Notes under the pieces: model-generated
Told to the model about the DNA's origin: nothing
Database searches by the model: none
What the model saw: the letters and a program-made list of their open reading frames with translations, nothing else
NCBI RefSeq assembly: GCF_025149465.1
Contig: NZ_CP102275.1
Coordinates: 2,305,596 to 2,369,595, forward strand
Length of the DNA stretch: 64,000 nucleotides
Direction: 5' to 3'
Source: Thomasclavelia spiroformis DSM 1552
GTDB taxonomy: Bacteria > Bacillota_I > Bacilli_A > Erysipelotrichales > Coprobacillaceae
Made by a program: the position numbers and the translations under genes
Shown: one piece after another, positions 2,602 through 15,287 of the stretch
Numbering within the stretch: position 1 is the first letter of the stretch
Layout of the letters: every line of letters starts with the position of its first letter

Positions 2602-3253
2602 TTTCAATCTGCCAATCAATTGGTGTCATATTATTCTTAATCAAAAAATCATTTGCTTTACTAAAAGGTTTAGACCCAAAAAAACCACGATGTGCTGAAA
2701 GAGGAGATGGATGGGCACTCTCTAAAACTAAGTGTCTACTAGTATCAATGTATTGTTTTTTACTACGAGCGTTATTTCCCCATAAAATAAATACCATTGG
2801 CTTTTCACGTCTATTTAACGCTTTTACAATATTTAATGTAAAAATTTCCCAACCAATACCCGCATGACTATTAGCTTTTCCTTCTTCCACTGTTAAAACA
2901 TTATTCAACAACAAGACTCCTTGTTTAGCCCATTTAGTTAAATCTCCATGATTAGGAATAAATGTATTAACATCATCTTTTAATTCTTTGTAAATATTAA
3001 CAAGACTTGGTGGTATTTTAACTCCTGGATAGACACTAAATGCTAAACCATTAGCTTGATGAAGTTCATGATATGGATCTTGACCTAAAATAACAACTTT
3101 TACATCTTCATAATCACAAAGATTCAAAGCTCTAAAAATATTTTGACGTGGTGGAAATATTGTTTTATGCAAATACTCGTTTTCAACATAACTATGTAAT
3201 TTTTTATAATAATCTTGTTCAAATTCAACAGCTACAATATCTTTAAATCTCAT
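2594..3253 (-). CDS. ung: Uracil-DNA glycosylase
   Basis: A 219-residue family-1 UDG that removes uracil from DNA in base excision repair. The water-activating loop GQDPYHELHQANGLAFS has the catalytic Asp at residue 59. The DNA-intercalation loop HPSPLSAHRGF is near 181-191, and LLLNNVLTVEEGKANSH lies between them. Length is normal. It overlaps the upstream HAD gene by 11 bp and folC by 8 bp, so it is inside the operon. Confidence 0.97.
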   Translation of the reverse strand: MRFKDIVAVEFEQDYYKKLHSYVENEYLHKTIFPPRQNIFRALNLCDYEDVKVVILGQDPYHELHQANGLAFSVYPGVKIPPSLVNIYKELKDDVNTFIPNHGDLTKWAKQGVLLLNNVLTVEEGKANSHAGIGWEIFTLNIVKALNRREKPMVFILWGNNARSKKQYIDTSRHLVLESAHPSPLSAHRGFFGSKPFSKANDFLIKNNMTPIDWQIENV

Positions 3254-4073
3254 TGAATATATACCTCTCTATCACTTCGGCAACAACGCCCTCATTATTA
3301 TCAGCCATAGTAACATAATCACAAATATTTTTAACATCTTCAGCTGCATTATTTGCTCCTACAGCTAATCCTGATGCCTTTAACATTGAAATATCGTTGT
3401 AATTATCACCTATTGCAATTGTATCTTTAATATCAATCCCTAATTTATTTGCTAAATCAATTAACCCTTTTCCTTTATCAATACCTAAGGCATTAAATTC
3501 CATATATTGATTAGAAGAATAACTAACAGTTACACACCCTTCTACTATTAAACTTAATTCTTTTTCTAAACGCATCAAAAAGTTTAAATCATTACTTTGA
3601 TAAAGCATTTTACATATTGGTTTGTCTTTTAAAAATTCAATATCTGGTTTTTCAAAATAAACAGCATCTATTCTTTGTCGTTTTAACTTTTGTTTTTGAT
3701 CATCATCAGCATTATAAATATATACCGTATCAATTGTGTTAATAAACTGACAAACATTATACCTAAGCCCTGCTTGAAAAATTTCTTTTACTTTTTCAAA
3801 TGTCAAACCATTAAATTGAAAAATTTTATTATCTTTATTTTCACTAAGTACTGCCCCATTAAAAGAAATAACATATTCATCTTCAAGTTCATTTAAACCT
3901 AATTCTTCTAATTCATATCGTACTTGTTTAAAACCTCTTCCTGTCGCTAAAACAAATTTAATCCCATATTTTTCTCTTGCTTTTTTTATTGCATCACAAT
4001 TCTTTTTAGCAATTCTGTGATTATCATCCAATAAAGTCTCATCTAAATCACAAGCAATTAACTTATATACCAT
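3243..4073 (-). CDS. Cof-type HAD-IIB family phosphatase (copy 1)
   Basis: A 276-residue HAD phosphatase. Motif I is LIACDLDETLLDD, motif II is VLATGRG, and motifs III/IV give GIDKGKGL and AIGDNYNDISML. A C2 cap lies between them, as in sugar-phosphate or flavin-phosphate phosphatases of the Cof/YwpJ group. The true substrate is unknown. The next gene upstream is a clear paralogue with the same motif layout and abuts this one at 4073, so the two arose by tandem duplication. Confidence 0.9.
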   Translation of the reverse strand: MVYKLIACDLDETLLDDNHRIAKKNCDAIKKAREKYGIKFVLATGRGFKQVRYELEELGLNELEDEYVISFNGAVLSENKDNKIFQFNGLTFEKVKEIFQAGLRYNVCQFINTIDTVYIYNADDDQKQKLKRQRIDAVYFEKPDIEFLKDKPICKMLYQSNDLNFLMRLEKELSLIVEGCVTVSYSSNQYMEFNALGIDKGKGLIDLANKLGIDIKDTIAIGDNYNDISMLKASGLAVGANNAAEDVKNICDYVTMADNNEGVVAEVIERYIFNEI

Positions 4074-4894
4074 TAATTTTCCTCCAAAATAAATTTTTCA
4101 ATTACTTCCTTTACTGCGCCTTGATAATAATCTAGTTTCGTAACATAATTAGCTATCACTTTAATATCATCATTAGCACTACTAACACATGCACCTAAAT
4201 TAGCTCTTTTAATCATTTCTAAATCATTATAATTATCTCCTATTGCAATCGTATCTTCAATTTCTATTTCTAAATATTTAGCCAACCAGGATAATGCATT
4301 ACCCTTATTTACATTTAAAGCATTAAATTCCATATATCGATTAGAAGAATAACTTATCGCCACCCTTTTACATATATCTTCTTTAAATTCATCTTCTATC
4401 ATCTTTAAATATTTAATATTTTTATTTTGATAAATCATTTTAGCAATCGGTTGATCTTTTAATAATTCAAACTCTTTTTCATCAATTATCTTAAATTTAG
4501 CTTTTTGTCTAATTTTACGAGCTACTTCTTCTTCATTAGCATTATATATATAACACATATCTAATGTAAAAATTAAAACACAAACATCATAATTTTTAGC
4601 CCTGTTAAACAATTCTTTTACATCTTCAAACAAAATGCTTTCAAAATTTAAAATACGATGATTTTTATTTTCAACTATTAATGCACCATTAAAACAAATA
4701 GAATACTCATTTTCTTTTTCATAAGTGCCAATTTCTTTTAAAATATCAAAAATCATATTATATGATCTTCCTGTTGCTACAACAAATTTAACTCCTTTAT
4801 CTCGGGCCTTTTTAATCGCTTCACAATTAAAATAAGGAACATGATGATCTACTAATAGAGTTTCATCCAAATCTGATAACATTAATTTATACAT
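4073..4894 (-). CDS. Cof-type HAD-IIB family phosphatase (copy 2)
   Basis: A paralogue of the gene at 3243-4073, 273 residues from the ATG at 4894. A GTG lies 6 bp further upstream, but AGGAG sits 5 bp before the ATG and includes that GTG, so ATG is the better start. Motifs are LMLSDLDETLLVDH, VVATGRSY, NVNKGNAL and AIGDNYNDLEMI, with a C2 cap. Shared stretches with copy 1, such as ISYSSN-YMEFNALN, lie in and after the cap. Substrate unknown. Confidence 0.9.
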   Translation of the reverse strand: MYKLMLSDLDETLLVDHHVPYFNCEAIKKARDKGVKFVVATGRSYNMIFDILKEIGTYEKENEYSICFNGALIVENKNHRILNFESILFEDVKELFNRAKNYDVCVLIFTLDMCYIYNANEEEVARKIRQKAKFKIIDEKEFELLKDQPIAKMIYQNKNIKYLKMIEDEFKEDICKRVAISYSSNRYMEFNALNVNKGNALSWLAKYLEIEIEDTIAIGDNYNDLEMIKRANLGACVSSANDDIKVIANYVTKLDYYQGAVKEVIEKFILEEN

Positions 4895-4906
4895 AATCAC
4901 TCCTAA

Positions 4907-5683
4907 CTAGCGATAAAATAAATCCATAAAAATCGGGACTCTTTGACGCCATTGCTCTTCATTATGACAAGCATCTTCAAAAAATCTCACGTTAATTCTA
5001 TCACTTTTTTCAATTAATTTATTATAAATAATTTCATTACTTTCATAATAAATTTTACTTATATAATCATCTCCATTTCCCTCATTTCCACCTAAATCCA
5101 TATAAAAACACTCAATTGAACTTAAATCACTTTTTTCAATCAATTCACAAAACTCTTTTATATAAAACCAATAAGCACTTGAAAGAGATGCCGTCTTTTT
5201 AAAAATATATCCATACTTGATTGCAGCATATGTAGTAATAATTCCTCCCATCGAACTTCCCACCATAGCACAATCATCTTTATCGGTTGGAAAATGATTA
5301 TCAATATATGGTTTTAACTGCTTAACAATAAAACGAATATATTTGTCTCCTTCACCACCAATTTTCAAATTCTCATTCCCATATTCCATTAATAAAATAT
5401 CTTTACTAATAGGCCATGGCCCATATTCATCTTCTCGTTTATGTAAAGTAAAATTGCATGGGATAGCAACCATAATTATATCTAAATTAACACTTTTTAC
5501 AAAATCATAAAATCCCCAACTAATCTTCATAAATGAATCTTCATCAAAAAAAGCATTTTGGCCATCGTTAATATACAAAACCGGATATCGTTTATTGCTT
5601 GTTTTATAATTATCTGGTATATATATCGTTATTTTTCTTGTTCTTCTTAAAGAACGCATATAAAAATTCTTTTCAACGAACAT
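4907..5683 (-). CDS. Esterase-D-like alpha/beta hydrolase
   Basis: A 258-residue protein of the putative esterase family (PF00756-like, as in Fes and antigen 85). It has YPVLYINDGQNAFF early, the nucleophile elbow MVGSSMGGIITTYAA near residue 140, and a C-terminal Asp/His region (MDLGGNEGNGD and ACHNEEQWRQR) that fits the catalytic triad. There is no signal peptide, so it should be cytoplasmic. It is the first gene of a leftward run of six genes. Substrate unknown. Confidence 0.85.
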   Translation of the reverse strand: MFVEKNFYMRSLRRTRKITIYIPDNYKTSNKRYPVLYINDGQNAFFDEDSFMKISWGFYDFVKSVNLDIIMVAIPCNFTLHKREDEYGPWPISKDILLMEYGNENLKIGGEGDKYIRFIVKQLKPYIDNHFPTDKDDCAMVGSSMGGIITTYAAIKYGYIFKKTASLSSAYWFYIKEFCELIEKSDLSSIECFYMDLGGNEGNGDDYISKIYYESNEIIYNKLIEKSDRINVRFFEDACHNEEQWRQRVPIFMDLFYR

Positions 5684-5770
5684 ATTTTTCCTCCAATTAA
5701 AATCAGATTTAGAATTTAAAATTGATAAATATTTTATAAATCATCAAACATAATTTTATGATCTATCACT

Positions 5771-5797
5771 TAATAAAAATAAGCACAACGTGCTTAT
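5771..5797 (-). terminator. Terminator of the yabP-yabQ-divIC operon
   Basis: On the minus strand ATAAGCAC (5797-5790) pairs with GTGCTTAT (5786-5779) around a 3-nt loop and is followed by TTTTTATT. The stem overlaps the divIC stop codon. Confidence 0.85.
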
Positions 5798-6081
5798 CAT
5801 TTGACCTCAGGTATAATTGAAACTTGTTCTCCTTCACGAGTAAAAACATAATTTTCACGGGCATAACGTGCTACATAATCATCATCATTCAATAATTCAA
5901 TTTCATTTTTCAACATTTCTCGTTCTTCTTCAATAGTTTCTTTTTGTTTTTTTACATCTGCCAGCTCATTTTTTCGCTGATAAACATTCATAAAACTATT
6001 AACTAGTATAAAGATTAAAGCACAACCACCAATCATGCACAAGAACCCTTTAATTGTTTTAAAAAATAATCTAGCGTTCAT
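5797..6081 (-). CDS. divIC: Septum formation initiator DivIC (FtsB-like)
   Basis: A 94-residue bitopic protein: a short cytoplasmic N-terminus, one TM helix at about 13-33, then a coiled coil (ADVKKQKETIEEEREMLKNE) and the family end motif DDDYVARYARENYVF. DivIC acts with FtsL and DivIB in the divisome. The gene overlaps yabQ by 4 bp; the order yabP-yabQ-divIC is the same as in Bacillus and Clostridium, which supports both this call and those of its neighbours. Confidence 0.92.
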   Translation of the reverse strand: MNARLFFKTIKGFLCMIGGCALIFILVNSFMNVYQRKNELADVKKQKETIEEEREMLKNEIELLNDDDYVARYARENYVFTREGEQVSIIPEVK

Positions 6082-6461
6082 CTTATCACCCTCTTTATGT
6101 GTTTTATTATACCATCAACTTTCCTAAAAAGAAATAACATCGGTCTTAAAATATATTTTATCATTCGAATTATCAATTCAATTAAATAATACATATAATA
6201 ACTATAATAATTCAAATATAAGATATACCCAATTAATATACATACAAAAAAATACATTCTAATTACACCATTATTAATTTTAAACAAACCTAAATAATAT
6301 ATATATCCAAATAATATTCCTATAGTTATTTGAATAACAATTCTTATCAAACGTTGATGATATTTATAAAACATTCGGTTAATAAGACTATATGCAAAAG
6401 TAAAAACAAAGCCAAAAACAAGTGAATATCCAATCACTTGTATCTGTTCAACCAAATTCAT
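6078..6461 (-). CDS. yabQ: Spore cortex biosynthesis protein YabQ
   Basis: A 127-residue, very hydrophobic protein with about four TM segments and a basic tail (FRKVDGIIKHIKRVIR), which is the YabQ layout. YabQ is a mother-cell membrane protein needed for cortex formation. It overlaps yabP by 1 bp and divIC by 4 bp, so translation is coupled. Sequence conservation in this family is low, and much of the weight comes from gene order. Confidence 0.88.
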   Translation of the reverse strand: MNLVEQIQVIGYSLVFGFVFTFAYSLINRMFYKYHQRLIRIVIQITIGILFGYIYYLGLFKINNGVIRMYFFVCILIGYILYLNYYSYYMYYLIELIIRMIKYILRPMLFLFRKVDGIIKHIKRVIR

Positions 6462-6760
6462 TATTTAAGCAATTTATTAAAAACACTTTCTTTTGCTTTA
6501 GGATTCTTTTTATTGGAAACATATGAAATCGAATCAATATTCCCCTTTATACTAACTTCGCATTTTTCCTGATCTAAACGAATCAAAGAAAGATCAGTTC
6601 CAGTTATATTCAAAAAACCTAATGAAGTTTCAATTAAAAATTCTAAAGAATCAAAACTTTCAATATTCTTAACCCCAGTTAATTCAATACTTTTTCGATC
6701 TTTTAAATAAACATTATGATAAGGCGTATGTTCAAATCGTATATTGTTATTATTATCCAT
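6461..6760 (-). CDS. yabP: Sporulation protein YabP
   Basis: A 99-residue protein of the YabP/YqfC family. It shows the family pattern of a beta-rich core: HNVYLKDRKSIELTGVKNIESFD, then FLIETSLGFLNITGTDLSL, then a positively charged end. YabP is produced in the mother cell and needed for spore formation. GGAGG precedes the ATG at 6760 by 7 bp, and a sigma-E-like promoter lies just upstream. Confidence 0.92.
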   Translation of the reverse strand: MDNNNNIRFEHTPYHNVYLKDRKSIELTGVKNIESFDSLEFLIETSLGFLNITGTDLSLIRLDQEKCEVSIKGNIDSISYVSNKKNPKAKESVFNKLLK

Positions 6761-6777
6761 ATAATTACCTCCAATAA

Positions 6778-6806
6778 ATAATATGAATCATCAGCATTAA
6801 ATATTC
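6778..6806 (-). promoter_or_regulatory. Candidate sigma-E promoter of yabP
   Basis: Minus strand: GAATATT (6806-6800), a 14-bp spacer, then CATATTAT (6785-6778). This matches the sigma-E -35 consensus (kmATATT) exactly and keeps CATA and the final T of the -10 (CATACANT). It lies 18 bp before the yabP start. yabP is sigma-E dependent in Bacillus. The assignment is by consensus only. Confidence 0.6.
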
Positions 6807-6984
6807 AAAAAAGTACCAATTTATTTTAATTTCTTTTTTCTATTTTGATATTTAATTAATATTTCAGATTCACTATTATTCAGCTTAATAGCTAAAATAT
6901 TTGTATCATTCAAATTAATGAAAAATCTCACATCACTTTGATTAATAATATAAAATTATTTTAAAACATAAAAACAAATGATAT

Positions 6985-7019
6985 AACAAAATAAAAGAAG
7001 TAGCCTAAACTACTTCTTT
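6985..7019 (-). terminator. Terminator of the GH3 gene
   Basis: Minus strand AAAGAAGTAG (7019-7010) pairs over 10 bp with CTACTTCTTT (7003-6994), loop of 6, followed by TATTTTG. The stem is almost the same as the one behind the GH20 gene (9841-9866). Confidence 0.85.
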
Positions 7020-7026
7020 AAATACA

Positions 7027-9741
7027 TTAATCTTCTTTTTTTCTAAGAACTTTAGCTCCTGCAATACTTAATAATGCTAATCCTGCTAATGTTCCTACTA
7101 ATGCATCATCACCTGTTTTTACACTTACAGTTGTATCGCCATTATTTACTGGTGTGTTTACTGTGTTATCTACATTTGATGGTGTACTTGGATTTGCTTG
7201 TAATCCGGCTATTGCTTTTTCTAATGTAGCTTTTGCATTATCTACTTCTTCTTGTGTTGCATTTGGATTTTCATATACTGCTTTTGCTTCATTTAATGCT
7301 TTTGTTAATCCATCAAATGATGCTTTTGTATAATTTGCACTATTTAATCCTTCTGCTTGATTAATTAAATCTTCTAATAAGCTCTTATCAGGAATTAATC
7401 TTAAGTTCAAGAATGCTGTTACTAAATTAGTATATGCTTCATTTACTTCTGGTTGCATTGCATTTACATCATTATATACACCATTTGCTGCTGTTAATGC
7501 ACCATCAAATTGTGTCCATGTAGTTTCAGTATATTTAGTTGAATCTAAATCACTAACTTTATCAATAAATGCTTTTAATGCTGTTTTATCTCCTACATAG
7601 AATTCTAATTTTTGCATTACACTTGCAAGTCTATCAAATGCTGCATTTACTTCATCTTGAGTTGCACTAGCATTATTATAAATTACATTTGCTTCATCTC
7701 TAGCTGCTTTGAATTCATTAGCTACTACTGGAATTACTTTTTCTAAATCTTTATCAGTTATTGCATTTGCTAGCTCGATTGCAATCTTTAATGCTGTTTT
7801 ATCAGCAATATCAACAGCATCATAAGTTAAACCGTAACCAATTGAATAAACAACTTCATCACTAAATGATCCATTTTCAAATTTATTAACATCTACTGGT
7901 AATTTACCAGTAGCTGCATGTCCTCCAAAAATAACTTCGATTCCTGCTGGAATATTTGGTCCAAATGCACTATCAGGAGTTAATCCTTCTGTTGGATCCA
8001 TTCCTTTATTACCATATACTGCTGCAACAGCTTTAGCATTTGGATAATTAGCAACATCATATGGTTTTGAAATACTCAATACTACAGCATCTTTATTTAC
8101 TTCATTTGCATAATTAACAACTTCAGTTGGAACTCTTGTTAACCAATGTGTTTGTTCCATTTGTGCTGCACTACCTATTTCAGAAATAACGATAACATAA
8201 TCAGCTGAGTCTATCTTATCTTTTAAATCAGCAATTGTTGTATTACTATTGTATCTAAAACTTTCATACGATACATTAGAACTAATTACATTTTCACCAA
8301 TCAAACGACGCATACTTAATTCCATACCTGGTAATTCATTATCATATGCTCCTAATAATAAAACTTTTTCCCCATCTTTTGGTCTTAATGGTAAAATATT
8401 ATCTTCATTTTTAGTAATAGTTACTGCTTGTGCTGAAACTTCTCTTTCAATATCACGGTTTTCTTTTGAGCCAACTTGTTCATTAGCATTTGCTAATTTT
8501 TCTTCCCATGTTCTTGTATCATCAGCATAATCTAAAATTCCGCGATTTTCTTTAAGAGTTAAAATTCTTCTAACCGAATCATTTAAATCATCTTCAGTTA
8601 TTGTTCCTTCATTTATAGCATTCTTCACTTCAGAAATAATAGTATCTAATTTAGCTACATCAGCTTTAGAACGTAAAATAGTTGGCATTAAACAAATATC
8701 AACATCTGCTTGAATTGCCATAATAACAGCTTGTGCTTCTCCGAAGTTTTTAGCAATTGCATCCATATTCATTGCATCTGTAACAACTACACCATCAAAA
8801 TTCATCTTTTCTCTTACTACACCTTTAATAATATCATCTGACAATGTAGCCGGAACATAAACCTCACTACCATCTGCAATTGATTTAACTGTATCTTTTT
8901 CAATTTGTGGATATTGAATATGAGCAGTCATTAACATATCTACACCATTATCAACAGCTGCTTGAAATGGTATTAATTCTAATTTTGATAATTCTTCATA
9001 TGATTTATCAACTAATGGTAATCCTGTATGAGAATCTGTTGCTGTATCCCCATGTCCAGGAAAATGTTTTGCAGCAGTAGCTACATTATGTTTTTGCATC
9101 CCTTTCATCATCGGAACCCCTAATTCAGCCACTAAATTAGGATCACTAGAAATTGAACGCAACCCAATTACTGGGTTATTTGGATTATTATTAGTATCAA
9201 ATGATGGCGCAAAGTTAACATTTATTCCAAGCTCATTTAACTCACGCCCAATAACTTCTCCAACATCATTAGCTGCTTCAACACTACGAGTAGCTCCTAA
9301 AGCCATGTTTCCTGGTAAAGCAGTCCCGCTACCTAACCTATAAACAATTCCCCCTTCTTGGTCAATTGTAATTAATAATGGTAAATTCCCATTACCTGCT
9401 TTATTTGAAATTGCTGCTTCTTGTAAATCATTTGTCAATTTCAAAGTTTGCTCAGTTTCTTTAACATTATTTGCAAATAAAATAACTCCACCAAAATCAT
9501 AATCATCAATGATTTTAGCTACTTCATCATTCAATACTGTTAAATCACTTACAGCAGTTTCCCCTTCTTGTTGCCATTGTCTAAAATCTGGCATAATCAT
9601 TTGGGTAATTTTTTGATCAAGTGTCATTCCTTCCATAATTTGATCAATACGACTTTGAGCGTTGACCAAACTAAGATTCATTGTTGCCCCAATTGTCATT
9701 GCTAACGCCAATGACGAAGCCAATAGTTTTCTCTTCTTCAT
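7027..9741 (-). CDS. Secreted GH3 beta-N-acetylhexosaminidase with FIVAR repeats and wall-anchor tail
   Basis: A 904-residue surface glycosidase. Residues 1-28 are a signal peptide ending VNA. The GH3 catalytic domain (about 30-400) has the NagZ-type dyad motif KHFPGHGDTATDSH near 224-237 and the nucleophile region VVVTDAMNMDAI near 317-328, which points to beta-N-acetylglucosaminidase. A GH3 C-terminal domain follows (about 430-630). Three FIVAR repeats (about 645-860) act as a stalk, then come SVKTGD, a TM helix and RKKED, a sortase-type signal with V instead of P. Likely role: removing GlcNAc from mucin glycans or muropeptides outside the cell. It is transcribed alone, with its own terminator, downstream of the GH20 gene. 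Confidence 0.93.
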   Translation of the reverse strand: MKKRKLLASSLALAMTIGATMNLSLVNAQSRIDQIMEGMTLDQKITQMIMPDFRQWQQEGETAVSDLTVLNDEVAKIIDDYDFGGVILFANNVKETEQTLKLTNDLQEAAISNKAGNGNLPLLITIDQEGGIVYRLGSGTALPGNMALGATRSVEAANDVGEVIGRELNELGINVNFAPSFDTNNNPNNPVIGLRSISSDPNLVAELGVPMMKGMQKHNVATAAKHFPGHGDTATDSHTGLPLVDKSYEELSKLELIPFQAAVDNGVDMLMTAHIQYPQIEKDTVKSIADGSEVYVPATLSDDIIKGVVREKMNFDGVVVTDAMNMDAIAKNFGEAQAVIMAIQADVDICLMPTILRSKADVAKLDTIISEVKNAINEGTITEDDLNDSVRRILTLKENRGILDYADDTRTWEEKLANANEQVGSKENRDIEREVSAQAVTITKNEDNILPLRPKDGEKVLLLGAYDNELPGMELSMRRLIGENVISSNVSYESFRYNSNTTIADLKDKIDSADYVIVISEIGSAAQMEQTHWLTRVPTEVVNYANEVNKDAVVLSISKPYDVANYPNAKAVAAVYGNKGMDPTEGLTPDSAFGPNIPAGIEVIFGGHAATGKLPVDVNKFENGSFSDEVVYSIGYGLTYDAVDIADKTALKIAIELANAITDKDLEKVIPVVANEFKAARDEANVIYNNASATQDEVNAAFDRLASVMQKLEFYVGDKTALKAFIDKVSDLDSTKYTETTWTQFDGALTAANGVYNDVNAMQPEVNEAYTNLVTAFLNLRLIPDKSLLEDLINQAEGLNSANYTKASFDGLTKALNEAKAVYENPNATQEEVDNAKATLEKAIAGLQANPSTPSNVDNTVNTPVNNGDTTVSVKTGDDALVGTLAGLALLSIAGAKVLRKKED
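7150..7806 (-). repeat. FIVAR array and anchor of GH3, near-duplicate of the GH20 array
   Basis: Three FIVAR units and the anchor closely match those at 9990-10655, with long identical protein stretches such as DKDLEKVIPVVANEF, TAFLNLRLIPDKSLLEDL and ANPSTPSNVDNTV. DNA identity is also high. A recent duplication or gene conversion between the two genes would explain it. Confidence 0.85.
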
Positions 9742-9866: not shown

Positions 9867-9870
9867 TTCA

Positions 9871-12800
9871 CTAATTTTCTTTTCTTCTCAACACTGTATA
9901 TCCAGCTACACTTAATAATGCAATTGTTGCAAACATTCCTACTAAGCTTCCATCTCCTGTTTTAACACTTGCAGTTGTATCACCATTATCTAGTGGTGTA
10001 CTTACTGTGTTATCTACATTTGATGGTGTACTTGGATTAGCTTGTAATCCAGCAATTGCTTTTTCTAATAAGTCTTTTGCATTATTTACTTGTTCTTGAG
10101 TTACATTTGGATCATCAAATACTACTTTTGCTTCATCTAATGCTTTTGTTAATCCATTAAATGTTGCTTTTGTATAGTTTACACTATTTAATCCTTCTGC
10201 TTGATTAATTAAGTCTTCTAATAAACTCTTATCTGGAATTAATCTTAAGTTCAAGAATGCTGTTACTAATTCTTTGTATGCATTGTTTACTTCTTCTTGC
10301 ATTGCATTATCATCGTTATATACAACATTAGCTTCATTTAATTCTTTTTCAAATGCTGCCCATGTATCTGTTGAATATTTACTTGAATCTAATCCTGTAA
10401 CATCATCGATAAATGCTTTTAATGCTGTTTTATCACCTTTTACAAAGTCTAACATATGCATTGCACTAGCAAGTATATCAAATGCTGCATTTACTTCATC
10501 TTGAGTAGCACTTGCATCATTGTAAATAGCATTAGCTTCATCTCTTGCTGCAATGAATTCATTTGCAACTACTGGGATTACTTTTTCTAAATCTTTATCA
10601 GTAATTGCATTAGCTAAGTCTACTGCAATCTTTAATGCTGTTTTATCAACTTCTTGAATATCTTGATCATATAATATTTTTGCATAATCAATTTCAATAT
10701 CGCTTGAAGTTGAATTTTCATTTTTGTTTCTAGTTGCTGATACTTTAATTGTATGTTGACCATATTCTAATCCAGTAACAGAGAATAATAATTGTTGATA
10801 TAAAGTACTTGGATTATAAGCATCAACTTGAATTACTTCTCCATCATCTACAGTAATATCATAGATTCCCATCATTGTATCTTTATTTCCATAAAGTTCA
10901 ATTCCTGTTCCTTCAAATGTAATTGTGAAATATGGTACAATATCTCCTTCTTGATAACGAGCCCAATTGAACCAATGTTCATCTCCATTATAGAAACGAT
11001 CTAGATATCCTTGACTTACGCCCCATTCACCAACAAAGTTAAATTGATCTACACCTGTTCCAACTTCTGAATCATTAATAATTTTATTTGATTCAACAAG
11101 TTGATCCATAACTACTTCTAATTTATCAATCATTGCATTAATTTGATCTTGTGTTGCATCTGCAGCTAATCCTTTTGCTTCTTCAATTGCTTTAGCTAAT
11201 ACTGCATAGCTAGCTTCTGTATAAGAATCACTTGGTAAACTTTCTGCTTTTTCTAATGTATATCCTAATAATTGTCTATTAGGCACTTCTTCATCAAGAA
11301 GTTCGCATTGAGCATATAACATATAATGATCAGATAAACCTTCATTTACTGTTTCTACTGTATTAATTTTGATATTTCTAGTTGTGATAATGTTATCTAT
11401 TTCACGACGTGCACCTTCTGCAGTATCTCCAATAGTTTCTAACCATACATCATCTTTACCATTTGCAATATTGTAATTTCTTAAGAATGGATAGAATTCT
11501 GAATTAGAATCACCTGTATTGAAATCACCTGTTAAAATCTTGTATGGTGTTGGATCTGCATCCATTGCATTAATAATAGTTTCGATTTGTTGTCTTCTTA
11601 TATCTGAATCTTCATAAGAAAGATGTGTACTATAAATAGCAATTGTTTTTCCATCTTTTTCAAATTCTGCACGAGCATAAGCTCTTCCTTCAATACCTGG
11701 TAGGCTAGGTAATGATGCTCCAGATTGTCCACTTAATTCATTTTGTGAAACAATACCAACACCATATTCTCCACCACCATAATCAATTGCTTTTTGGAAA
11801 TGTGAATAACCAAAGTAGCCTTGATTTACAAATTCTTGCATCATATCGTAATTATTACGACTTGTAAATACATCTACTTCTTGCACACCTGCAACAGTAA
11901 TTTGTTTTTCTTCCATCAAATCACTTATTGCAGCTATATTTGGATGTCTATTGGCTGCAATGTTAAATGAAGCAATATTAATTTCATTTGATTTTAATTC
12001 TTTCTTCAATCCTTCTCTTGCTTTTACTAATGCATAATAAGCACTATTAATTTGAGATTGAGTTGCTTCATCATTAGCATATACTTCTTTAGCAACAGCT
12101 AATGCATCTTCCAATTCTTTCCATGATTTTTCTGTATATTCGTCTTTTTCTAAACTTTCAGCAGCATCAATTTCAGCTTTTAATGTTTCTTTTTCAATTA
12201 TTACTACAGAGCCATCATAAATTGCTTTGATTTCTTCTGCTTCTAAAGCACGATTATATATATTAAGTTCATCCATAGAACCACTCATGTTTCCAGGACT
12301 ATTAATATCATTATTTACTGCTGCTCCAATTCTTTGTACCGGACAATTAATAGTTGTAGATACTTTATCAATATATTGACCATCAACATATAATGATGTT
12401 CCAGTAGAATCACCTACAAACGCTACATGTTTCCATTCACCCTCTGAAAGAGAATAATCAAAACTTGAATCAACAACACCATAAATACTAACTCCTAACT
12501 TTTTAGTATTTTTGTATTGTTCTAGTTTAATATCTCCTTCACTTCCACCAAATAATACGGCATTTGTATGTGGATTAGTTCCATTTTTTACCCAACAAGC
12601 AACTGTCCAGTCACCTTTTACCTTACCTAATTCTAAATCTACATAACCTTTTCTATTGAAATCTAAAGCTTTTCCGTTAACACCATCTGTCCAGCCTACT
12701 TCTCCTTGGAAAGTTCCAATATACTTACCTTCTGTATCAGTAATTGTATTACCTTTACCTTCATCTAAGTTCCACATTCCATTTACTGGTTCATATGGTA

Positions 12801-14445
12801 CTTCCCAGATATCTTCATCCTTATTGAATTTGATTCCCTGGTTTTCTAATCTTTCTCCATGAGCTATTAATCTTGGCTTATATGTATCCCAGCTTCTTAA
12901 TTCCTTTGGTGTCCATCCTATTTCTGCATGGCTTAAGATCTTTGGATATGCCATATAGTCTAAATGATCATTGTTTGCTAATGTTTCTGACCATAAGCAT
13001 GCTTCGATTCCTACGATATTTTCTTTATCTCCATAGTTTGTTGGATCCCAGCTGTATGTATCTTCGATTGAATTGTATCCTGCCCATTGTAATCCTAATT
13101 CACAGCTTGCATCATATTTCATATCCATATATGCATAATCTGCTGGTGAAACTACATATTTGATACCATCTTTTAATTTCGCATTTCCTGTTGACCAGAA
13201 CTGTGTTACTGTTCCTTCTTTATCTTCTGCTACACCGTCATAGTTTTGCCATCCAATTGGTGTCTTTCCGTACTTCTTAGCTATTTCTGTTACTCTGTTC
13301 ATGAAATATGCATAATCTTCTGATGATGTTGAATGTGCTTCATCTCCTCCGATATGGATATATTTTGATGGTGAGATAGCTGCTACTTGTCTAAATACTT
13401 CATCGATGAATTCATATGTTTTTTCATTACGGCATTCAAATGTTGAAAATCCTACATCAATTCCTTCATATGGCTTAGTATTGTCATAGTTTCCTGAATG
13501 TGGTTTTCCATCTTCACTGCTGTTCAAGAAATTCAATGATACTAATGCTGCCCATGAATGTCCTGGCATATCAAATTCTGGAATGATTTCTACATATCGA
13601 TCTGCAGCATATGCTACGATTTCTTTATAGTCTTCCTGTGTATATTGTCCGGCTTTGATTCCATTGATACTTGTTGAAGTTTGAGCTCCAATTGTATTTA
13701 GTTTTGACAATGATTCACCGTACATTTCACCTTTGATCTCTAGACGCCATCCCTGGTCGTCACTTAAATGAAGATGTAATTTGTTCATTTTATACTGAGC
13801 CATATTATCGATATAGCGTTTTACATCTTCTACTGAAAAGAAGTGTCTTGTCACATCAAGATGTGATCCACGATATTCATATTCAGGTTTATCATTAATA
13901 GATGAACATGGAATAACCCAAGATACCCCTTCTACTAATTCTGTTTTTTCGATATCAGCTGGTAAAAGCTGTCTTACAGTTTGAACAGCCATAAATGCTC
14001 CAGCTGGCTGATTTGCTGTAATTTCCACACCAGCTTCTGTAGTTTTAATCTTATAGCCTTCTTCACCTAAATCGCTTTCTGAATCTGAAATTACGATAGC
14101 GATATTTCCAGTTCCTTCATTGTCCCCTTTGATAACAGGAAGTTCATATCCTGTAGAAGGTCTAAGCTTGCTGGCAAGATATTCCCCAACATTTTCATAT
14201 AATTCATCAGTTTGTTTATCATCCAAACCTTTGACATAGATATTTGTGTCTTCACTGATTGTAAATTTGTCTTGAGTTACCTCATAATCTACTGGAAGAG
14301 GTATTAATTGTCGTTCCAGACTAGCAGGTTCCTCTACAGCATTAACCGGCTGTATAGGCATAGCAGTTACAGTAGTAAAAGACATAAATGCAGCTAATGT
14401 TAGTGCCAACATTTTTTTCATTTTAAATTTTTTTATTAAACTCAT
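9871..14445 (-). CDS. Multidomain surface GH20 beta-hexosaminidase with LamG-like and EEP domains
   Basis: A 1524-residue secreted protein. Order: signal peptide 1-36 (ends PVNA); GH20 N-terminal domain (about 45-175); GH20 TIM barrel (about 185-550) with the catalytic Asp-Glu pair in HIGGDEAHS near 368 and LHLHLSDDQGWRLEIKG before it; LamG-like sandwich (about 555-745); FIVAR; EEP-family domain (about 822-1050) with ASFNIAAN, AGVQEVD, YSTHLSY, TGDFNTGD, REIDNIITT and the end motif SDHYML; FIVAR; a beta-rich domain (about 1120-1255) that may bind carbohydrate; three FIVAR repeats; SVKTGD, TM helix and RRKEN anchor. GH20 enzymes remove terminal GlcNAc or GalNAc, fitting mucin use. The EEP domain keeps all core acidic and His residues, so it should be active as a nuclease or phosphoesterase. 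The fusion is unusual. Confidence 0.93.
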   Translation of the reverse strand: MSLIKKFKMKKMLALTLAAFMSFTTVTAMPIQPVNAVEEPASLERQLIPLPVDYEVTQDKFTISEDTNIYVKGLDDKQTDELYENVGEYLASKLRPSTGYELPVIKGDNEGTGNIAIVISDSESDLGEEGYKIKTTEAGVEITANQPAGAFMAVQTVRQLLPADIEKTELVEGVSWVIPCSSINDKPEYEYRGSHLDVTRHFFSVEDVKRYIDNMAQYKMNKLHLHLSDDQGWRLEIKGEMYGESLSKLNTIGAQTSTSINGIKAGQYTQEDYKEIVAYAADRYVEIIPEFDMPGHSWAALVSLNFLNSSEDGKPHSGNYDNTKPYEGIDVGFSTFECRNEKTYEFIDEVFRQVAAISPSKYIHIGGDEAHSTSSEDYAYFMNRVTEIAKKYGKTPIGWQNYDGVAEDKEGTVTQFWSTGNAKLKDGIKYVVSPADYAYMDMKYDASCELGLQWAGYNSIEDTYSWDPTNYGDKENIVGIEACLWSETLANNDHLDYMAYPKILSHAEIGWTPKELRSWDTYKPRLIAHGERLENQGIKFNKDEDIWEVPYEPVNGMWNLDEGKGNTITDTEGKYIGTFQGEVGWTDGVNGKALDFNRKGYVDLELGKVKGDWTVACWVKNGTNPHTNAVLFGGSEGDIKLEQYKNTKKLGVSIYGVVDSSFDYSLSEGEWKHVAFVGDSTGTSLYVDGQYIDKVSTTINCPVQRIGAAVNNDINSPGNMSGSMDELNIYNRALEAEEIKAIYDGSVVIIEKETLKAEIDAAESLEKDEYTEKSWKELEDALAVAKEVYANDEATQSQINSAYYALVKAREGLKKELKSNEINIASFNIAANRHPNIAAISDLMEEKQITVAGVQEVDVFTSRNNYDMMQEFVNQGYFGYSHFQKAIDYGGGEYGVGIVSQNELSGQSGASLPSLPGIEGRAYARAEFEKDGKTIAIYSTHLSYEDSDIRRQQIETIINAMDADPTPYKILTGDFNTGDSNSEFYPFLRNYNIANGKDDVWLETIGDTAEGARREIDNIITTRNIKINTVETVNEGLSDHYMLYAQCELLDEEVPNRQLLGYTLEKAESLPSDSYTEASYAVLAKAIEEAKGLAADATQDQINAMIDKLEVVMDQLVESNKIINDSEVGTGVDQFNFVGEWGVSQGYLDRFYNGDEHWFNWARYQEGDIVPYFTITFEGTGIELYGNKDTMMGIYDITVDDGEVIQVDAYNPSTLYQQLLFSVTGLEYGQHTIKVSATRNKNENSTSSDIEIDYAKILYDQDIQEVDKTALKIAVDLANAITDKDLEKVIPVVANEFIAARDEANAIYNDASATQDEVNAAFDILASAMHMLDFVKGDKTALKAFIDDVTGLDSSKYSTDTWAAFEKELNEANVVYNDDNAMQEEVNNAYKELVTAFLNLRLIPDKSLLEDLINQAEGLNSVNYTKATFNGLTKALDEAKVVFDDPNVTQEQVNNAKDLLEKAIAGLQANPSTPSNVDNTVSTPLDNGDTTASVKTGDGSLVGMFATIALLSVAGYTVLRRKEN
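9990..10655 (-). repeat. FIVAR array and anchor of GH20, near-duplicate of the GH3 array
   Basis: The partner of 7150-7806, same strand and same distance from the gene end. The DNA contains identical runs, for example around 10236-10265 and 7402-7431, both coding for TAFLNLRLIP. Confidence 0.85.
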
Positions 14446-14774: not shown

Positions 14775-15287
14775 TCACTGACCCTCAAAGGGTCTTTTAC
14801 TTTTTTTCTTTTTCTTGTACCCATCCACTGGTTCTCCTGTGAACGGGTCAATAAATTCTTCCATACTCATTTGATCACTCAACTTATCTTCCGCTAACTG
14901 ATTTTGAATATATTCTCTCACTGTCTTCTCGTTCTTTCCTACTGTATCTACAAAATAGCCTCTTGCCCAAAATTTTCTATTTCCATATTTATATTTCATA
15001 CTTGCATGACGATCAAATATCATAAGCGTTGACTTGCTTTTCAGGTATCCCATAAACTCCGCCACAGAATACTTTGGTGGTATTTCTAATAGAAGATGAA
15101 TATGATCAGGACATAACTCTCCTTCTATCAGCTCTACTCCCGGTTTTCTTTCAATTAAGGTCTTTATAATTAATCTTATATCATGTCTTAATTTATTGTA
15201 TATTACCATCCTTCTAAATTTTGGTACTATTACAATATGATATTTACATCTATATGATGCATGTGATAAACTTTTTGTGTCTTTCAT
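14775..15287 (-). CDS. tnpA: IS200/IS605-family Y1 transposase TnpA
   Basis: A 170-residue HUH transposase. The HUH motif is DHIHLLLEI with His 62 and His 64, and the catalytic Tyr lies in REYIQNQLAED at about 126. The N-terminal SYRCKYHIVIVPKFRR and KFWARGYFVDTVG are family hallmarks. It cuts and joins single-stranded DNA at the hairpin ends. A basic Lys-rich tail follows the usual end. The frame looks intact, so the element may be active. Its ribosome site is sequestered (see 15293-15352). Confidence 0.95.
   Translation of the reverse strand: MKDTKSLSHASYRCKYHIVIVPKFRRMVIYNKLRHDIRLIIKTLIERKPGVELIEGELCPDHIHLLLEIPPKYSVAEFMGYLKSKSTLMIFDRHASMKYKYGNRKFWARGYFVDTVGKNEKTVREYIQNQLAEDKLSDQMSMEEFIDPFTGEPVDGYKKKKKSKRPFEGQ

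Follow-up and report, generated by a model that had tools for sequence, protein, structure and literature searches.

A predicted surface protein of Thomasclavelia spiroformis that joins a GH20 hexosaminidase to a putative phosphoesterase of the EEP superfamily

GH20 enzymes, EEP (endonuclease/exonuclease/phosphatase) domains and multi-catalytic anchored enzymes are each already known separately. The described EEP proteins that come closest to the one reported here are of two kinds. BT3783, the mannosyl-6-phosphatase of Bacteroides thetaiotaomicron (PDB 4C1R), is a bacterial phosphoesterase that works on a glycan, and SpnA of Streptococcus pyogenes and SWAN of Streptococcus sanguinis are wall-anchored EEP nucleases (PMC9294136, PMC4118848). 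In SpnA, seven residues are necessary for the wall-anchored DNase (PMC9294136). On the glycosidase side, GH20 enzymes of mucin feeders have been described from Bifidobacterium bifidum (PMC10245121) and Akkermansia (Am2136; PMC9673926).

Here, we describe a gene of Thomasclavelia spiroformis DSM 1552 that brings GH20 and EEP domains together, found in a 64,000-nucleotide stretch of contig NZ_CP102275.1 (hereafter the window, whose numbering is used below). It is one open reading frame on the minus strand (9871-14445) encoding 1524 amino acids, with zero internal stops, and every Pfam match within it exceeds its curated cut-off. The chain begins with a predicted signal peptide (residues ~1-36, 14338-14445), judged by eye from a basic start, a hydrophobic core and VNA before VEEP, followed by a GH20b N-terminal domain (residues 46-185, 13891-14310; 74 bits), the GH20 catalytic domain (residues 189-513, 12907-13881; 270.9 bits) and a LamG domain (Laminin_G_3, residues 600-740, 12226-12648; 72.1 bits) with about 50% identity to the LamG of other GH20 proteins. 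FIVAR 1 (residues 747-818, 11992-12207) then precedes the EEP domain (PF03372; residues 822-1048, 11302-11982), and FIVAR 2 (residues 1055-1121, 11083-11283), recognized by BLAST to FIVARs of relatives, precedes a jelly-roll module (residues 1122-1262, 10660-11082). The chain closes with C-terminal FIVAR repeats (residues 1263-1470, 10036-10659), 71-78% identical to the tails of the GH3 and PL8 genes of the same genome, and a wall-sorting tail (residues 1471-1524, 9874-10035). All these features lie on the minus strand, and Pfam itself matches FIVAR in three stretches of the protein.

Much of this layout had been anticipated by an original prediction made from the DNA letters. Membership of GH20 is borne out by the catalytic domain match together with the Asp-Glu pair (D368-E369, within HIGGDEAH), and the EEP range given there, 11295-11982, is accurate to a few codons. 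The EEP motifs that it named are in place (QEVD at residue 855, STHL at 939, TGDFNT at 972 and LSDH at 1037), and a further one, NIASFNI, lies at residue 823. Its domain list of GH20, LamG and EEP stands according to Pfam, but omitted the FIVAR repeats and the jelly roll. The latter, for which a Pfam search of residues 1122-1262 gives zero match, is modelled by AlphaFold as a beta sandwich (pLDDT 89.5); Foldseek finds its nearest counterparts in MiXBM and a portion of BT_2959, and its relatives recur within the genus, including in a GH123 protein that adjoins one of the related EEP genes (L032). We regard the module as carbohydrate-binding-like, with a presumed binding role.

The protein had also been predicted to be anchored to the wall, which appears likely, but not by the LPXTG route. 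The canonical LPXTG is absent from the C-terminus and VKTGD stands in its place (9952-9966). A degenerate form of the VKTGD pattern occurs 43 times in the genome, against once for a reversed control pattern, and the genome encodes four sortases. The signal peptide, the VKTGD variant, a hydrophobic stretch, the basic tail RRKEN and a genomic sortase are thus all present, and the protein is probably secreted and sortase-anchored through VKTGD.

The EEP domain matches Exo_endo_phos (PF03372) at residues 825-1040 with 59.3 bits (E 6e-16, cut-off 24.5). An AlphaFold model made from 13 aligned sequences is confident (pLDDT 91.5, pTM 0.91), and its four-layer fold belongs to the EEP superfamily, with Z scores of 21-28 to solved EEPs (Foldseek, VIA-align). 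The highest-scoring neighbours are 4RUW (28.1), 3G6S and TDP2 (both 25.8), 3L1W (25.5) and 3MPR (25.4), with BT3783 at 25.1, tied with TDP2 and the uncharacterised EEPs, and neutral sphingomyelinase at 23.6. Because most of these scores, for phosphatase, TDP2, nuclease and sphingomyelinase, are nearly equal, the fold leaves the substrate undecided. The metal-site and catalytic residues N828, E856, H941, D974, N976, D1017, D1039 and H1040 do not vary across the 33 sequences compared, and R921 is a further core residue. The description of the domain as active-looking is therefore upheld by both fold and residues, and a dead EEP can be ruled out in that every catalytic residue is retained.

We used profile and fold scores, rather than a tree with DNases, sphingomyelinases and GPI-related members, to place the domain, because identities of 15-20% would make such a tree unreliable. 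This EEP falls short of the cut-off of every curated DNase, exonuclease III and sphingomyelinase model. The NCBIfam exonuclease III models TIGR00195/TIGR00633 give 20.1 bits against a cut-off of 182.55 and 16.5 against 99.05, and the sphingomyelinase model TIGR03395 gives 13.4 against 248.2; scores so far below the cut-offs rule out an ordinary enzyme of either type. The subfamily is rare: at a threshold of E 1e-25, samples of 395 genomes from the class and 392 from the phylum each yielded four genomes that carry it, and searches of plasmids and phages gave only distant EEPs apart from an Escherichia phage tailspike, considered below.

The fusion itself appears natural, as had been claimed. 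An assembly join is ruled out by the intact reading frame, the single-contig genome (2.53 Mb) and homologous unions in independent assemblies; GC content is 0.29-0.36 along the whole gene. The GH20 domain is 62-66% identical to those of the loci L025, L026 and L147, and the LamG domain is 47-51% identical to theirs and 41% identical to that of L024, from T. saccharogumia. FIVAR 1 and the EEP domain are closest to L024, at 56% (the runner-up to FIVAR 1 reaches about 40%) and 65%, respectively, above any other relative. The L024 protein has the order LamG-FIVAR-EEP without GH20, and its locus resembles that of the window, with M18 peptidase, DHH-family and PAS-regulator genes near both. These similarities are most simply read as the fusion of a GH20-LamG head with a FIVAR-EEP unit, the break falling between LamG and FIVAR 1 and FIVAR 1 being the likely junction of the two halves; the alternative is that L024 lost its GH20. 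The expectation that close relatives would carry the fusion thus held in that it recurs, but not for the relative with the closest EEP.

The C-terminal tail is common to the neighbouring GH3 gene and dozens of sites in the genome, which makes FIVAR repeats plausible joints. Over their final 300 nt, the GH3 gene (7025-7324) and the GH20-EEP gene (9869-10168) share 83% identity. With dozens of FIVAR/VKTGD tails of this kind across the genome, surface-protein genes look as though they exchange or homogenise their tails. Directly upstream of the GH20-EEP gene, before the M18 peptidase gene, lies an IS200-like (Y1_Tnp) transposase gene (14775-15287, minus strand), which is absent from the similar T. 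saccharogumia locus. That locus also encodes (L024:10626-14001), two genes from the LamG-EEP gene, a secreted protein that resembles purple acid phosphatases and has a choice-of-anchor I domain, predicted to be a second extracellular phosphoesterase nearby.

Relatives of the domain, read in loci of separate assemblies, show a variety of unions. The EEP precedes a canonical GH20-LamG in L025 and L026, at the opposite end from the C-terminal EEP of the window protein. It also precedes a divergent GH20 with F5/8 domains in L027, L028 and L038 and follows the divergent GH20 in L029, L030 and L032, so that this clade, whose members retain the Asp-Glu pair as HIGTDEYD, is joined at either end too. 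In L044 (Candidatus Mediterraneibacter) an intact gene has the order F5/8-EEP-F5/8-Big_2-PL8-FIVAR. The proteins of L040-L042 are lipoproteins with EEP-F5/8-CBM4_9-Big_2, and L047 belongs to the same EEP clade. In L038, a 309-aa reading frame (5140-6069, plus strand) before the EEP-GH20 gene repeats that gene's signal peptide and EEP sequence at its start and is apparently a partial tandem duplicate.

In the EEP tree, GH20-linked EEPs as one clade are rejected (AU p 2.9e-6), as are those of the divergent GH20 clade (AU p 4.6e-4). The test likewise rejects one clade for the EEPs of the window protein, L025 and L026 (AU p 7.5e-5), and with it a common origin of these three canonical-GH20 fusions. 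Architecture defined the groups in all three tests, although an initial tree was already to hand when they were drawn up. Association with GH20 switches at least four times on the tree, in counts that cannot tell gain from loss. These several separate joins suggest that the EEP helps to dismantle amino-sugar-rich material rather than being an accidental passenger.

The T. spiroformis genome has a second EEP of the subfamily (L033, C1:314000-328000), with F5/8 domains before a PL8 lyase. It follows the L044 domain order but is split into three minus-strand reading frames (2719-5754, 5871-6368 and 6386-8182), so the gene looks broken or the sequence has errors. A related GH20-LamG head, in L147, runs into GH29 and not EEP. 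A GH29 fucosidase gene like that part of L147, broken into several reading frames, is present in the T. spiroformis genome (L203:1550-5565). The idea of a clean swap of EEP for GH29 in one slot has been softened, as this genome has GH29 and a LamG-FIVAR tail in separate genes.

Gene neighbourhoods add context on the substrate. Beside the window gene lies a secreted, NagZ-like GH3 beta-N-acetylhexosaminidase (7027-9741, minus strand; Pfam GH3 323 bits) with the same FIVAR tail and anchor, which scores 174.9 bits against NCBIfam PRK05337, under its cut-off of 207. Neighbours in relatives include GH84 (L147), GH89 (L151) and GH123 (L032). The lipoprotein EEPs of L034, L035 and L043 adjoin PTS genes, NagE-like in three genera, that among NCBIfam models score best against the GlcNAc-specific IIBC (430-483 bits, under the cut-off of 553); in the Faecalicoccus locus, NagB and a GatZ-like gene also lie within 7 kb. 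In the Lachnoclostridium loci the EEP is preceded by MurQ (446 bits, above cut-off), a beta-lactamase-family gene, a PTS of the Aga/Man type and a gene that looks RpiR-like by eye, and in Providencia about 6 kb separate the EEP from NagE. Judged by sequence, partners and neighbours are mostly amino-sugar enzymes and transporters (GH20, GH84, GH89, GH123, PL8, NagE-like PTS, MurQ), in a tally of loci of this EEP subfamily alone. This context leans to a glycan-linked phosphoester.

We therefore favour a bi-catalytic, HexNAc-directed surface enzyme whose EEP domain is an active metal-dependent phosphoesterase that probably acts on a phosphate ester of a HexNAc-containing glycan, and give this reading an even chance of being right. 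EEP catalysis, a glycan-linked substrate and anchoring are all things that we infer. The GH20 domain would remove terminal beta-linked GlcNAc or GalNAc, and the EEP domain, with a divalent metal, would hydrolyse a phosphate ester (mono- or diester) carried by the HexNAc-containing glycan under attack or by one next to it. Removal of the phosphate would make blocked chains trimmable, and the amino sugar (and phosphate) would be taken up. LamG and the jelly roll may hold the substrate, and the FIVAR repeats may act as spacers and recombination joints. A phosphorylated HexNAc-containing glycan is a more likely EEP target than DNA or sphingomyelin, with the mannosyl-6-phosphatase BT3783 as an EEP to compare. 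Mucin O-glycans are poor in phosphate, so a glycan target would have to be something else. If the EEP does cleave a glycan-linked phosphoester, the fused protein would be a route to host or microbial glycans closed to glycosidases alone, and a rare EEP subfamily would gain its first function.

A broader proposal, which we advance tentatively and hold less likely than not, would make these EEP modules the first members of a family of phosphoglycan esterases in gut Bacillota, specific for HexNAc-bearing phosphoglycans and repeatedly fused to GH20 or PL8. Its members would be phosphodiesterases or phosphatases, found also alone beside amino-sugar PTS genes, and the phosphoglycans would be phosphorylated host glycans or teichoic-acid-like polymers. 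To our knowledge, no catalogue of carbohydrate-active enzymes holds a phosphoglycan esterase class of this kind. Our literature searches found neither a recurrent union of this EEP subfamily with HexNAc-acting enzymes nor anything relevant on BT3783, mannosyl-6-phosphatase or EEP-glycosidase fusions, which is weak evidence of novelty as the slashed domain name is unsearchable.

The readings overlap, and the likelihoods we attach to the favoured one and its rivals may add up to more or less than one. SpnA and SWAN make an extracellular DNase the strongest rival, with the EEP digesting mucus or neutrophil-trap DNA while GH20 trims glycans; we think this rather unlikely, though a serious contender. 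The seven residues necessary in SpnA are matched by E856, R921, H941, D974, N976, D1017 and D1039, and the spacing equals that of SpnA in three intervals (R-H 20, D-N 2, N-D 41), but the set is general and so cannot separate nuclease from phosphatase. TDP2, among the closest folds, is a DNA-end phosphodiesterase, and 5 of 13 relatives weakly match the MnuA membrane nuclease model. Against a DNase stand the low exonuclease III scores, the amino-sugar genes that adjoin the relatives and the partner modules: no OB-fold nucleic-acid-binding module of the SpnA/SWAN type occurs in the window protein, where Pfam finds GH20, LamG, EEP and FIVAR, with the jelly roll in the unmatched stretch, so that lectin-like and glycosidase modules are present instead. 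The domain is also acidic, with 34 D+E against 17 K+R, but bovine DNase I is acidic too. Were the EEP a DNase, a gut commensal would couple feeding on glycans to clearing extracellular DNA.

MurQ and the NagZ-like GH3 suggest a special case, in which the target is a bacterial wall polymer. The EEP would then cut a teichoic-acid-type phosphodiester (e.g. at MurNAc-6-phosphate) while GH20 and the GH3 neighbour remove GlcNAc. Teichoic acids contain both phosphodiesters and HexNAc, and the Lachnoclostridium relatives come after PTS, RpiR-like and MurQ genes, but the PL8, GH29, GH89 and GH123 partners and neighbours in relatives point to host glycans, and we consider a wall target improbable.

Profile similarity raises another reading, in which the EEP works as a phosphodiesterase on epithelial-surface or dietary substrates, either lipid head groups (as sphingomyelinases do) or anchors of the GPI type. 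In a profile search of the PDB, the lowest E-values for our EEP query (A1) belong to sphingomyelinase-type chains (E 1.9e-9), and neutral sphingomyelinase is among the fold neighbours. The PGAP2IP/Cwh43 EEP model (PF23226) is weakly matched by 4 of 13 relatives but has no match to the window EEP at E 1, TIGR03395 scores far too low, and GH20 and PL8 partners are inactive on phospholipids, which leaves this a slim chance. Similarly slim is the chance that the EEP is a passive hitch-hiker, with domains shuffled by freely recombining FIVAR repeats without functional coupling: FIVAR/anchor segments are common to several genes, dozens of similar tails exist and the relative with the closest EEP has no GH20, but even strongly diverged copies keep every catalytic residue unchanged, and unions with HexNAc-acting enzymes recur at opposite ends.

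A further likeness to the favoured glycan-directed enzyme comes from two Escherichia phages, BEK2 and BEK3. In BEK2, an annotated tail fibre protein (L204:1960-3477, QGH76735.1) has Tail_spike_N and an EEP match of 42.6 bits, above cut-off. The EEP looks like the catalytic part of this protein, which may be a phosphoesterase tailspike and would be expected to bind surface glycans. It shares the EEP motifs ExRxYxR, YxTHL and GDxNT with the window protein but carries Tail_spike_N rather than glycosidase or lectin domains, and the similarity spans 43% of the EEP domain. As tailspikes commonly attack surface glycans, this would be a second setting of a kindred EEP in a glycan-directed protein and, by analogy only, an independent hint of such a role.

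Compared with the systems described at the outset, the window protein shares something with each. The GH20 enzymes of the mucin feeders likewise have the catalytic Asp-Glu pair and release amino sugars, and the titles and abstracts of those reports do not mention an EEP module (PMC10245121, PMC9673926). BT3783 and the uncharacterised bacterial EEPs 4RUW, 3G6S, 3L1W, 3MPR and 3TEB share the fold (Z 24-28 over about 220 residues; HMM match of query A1 to 4C1R, E 1.2e-5) but are only 14-21% identical and stand alone, without GH20, LamG or anchor. SpnA and SWAN have the same essential residues and are likewise wall-anchored proteins with an EEP module, but whereas they combine DNase activity with OB-fold partners and LPXTG/LPKTG anchors, the window protein combines its EEP with glycosidase and lectin-like partners and a VKTGD signal.
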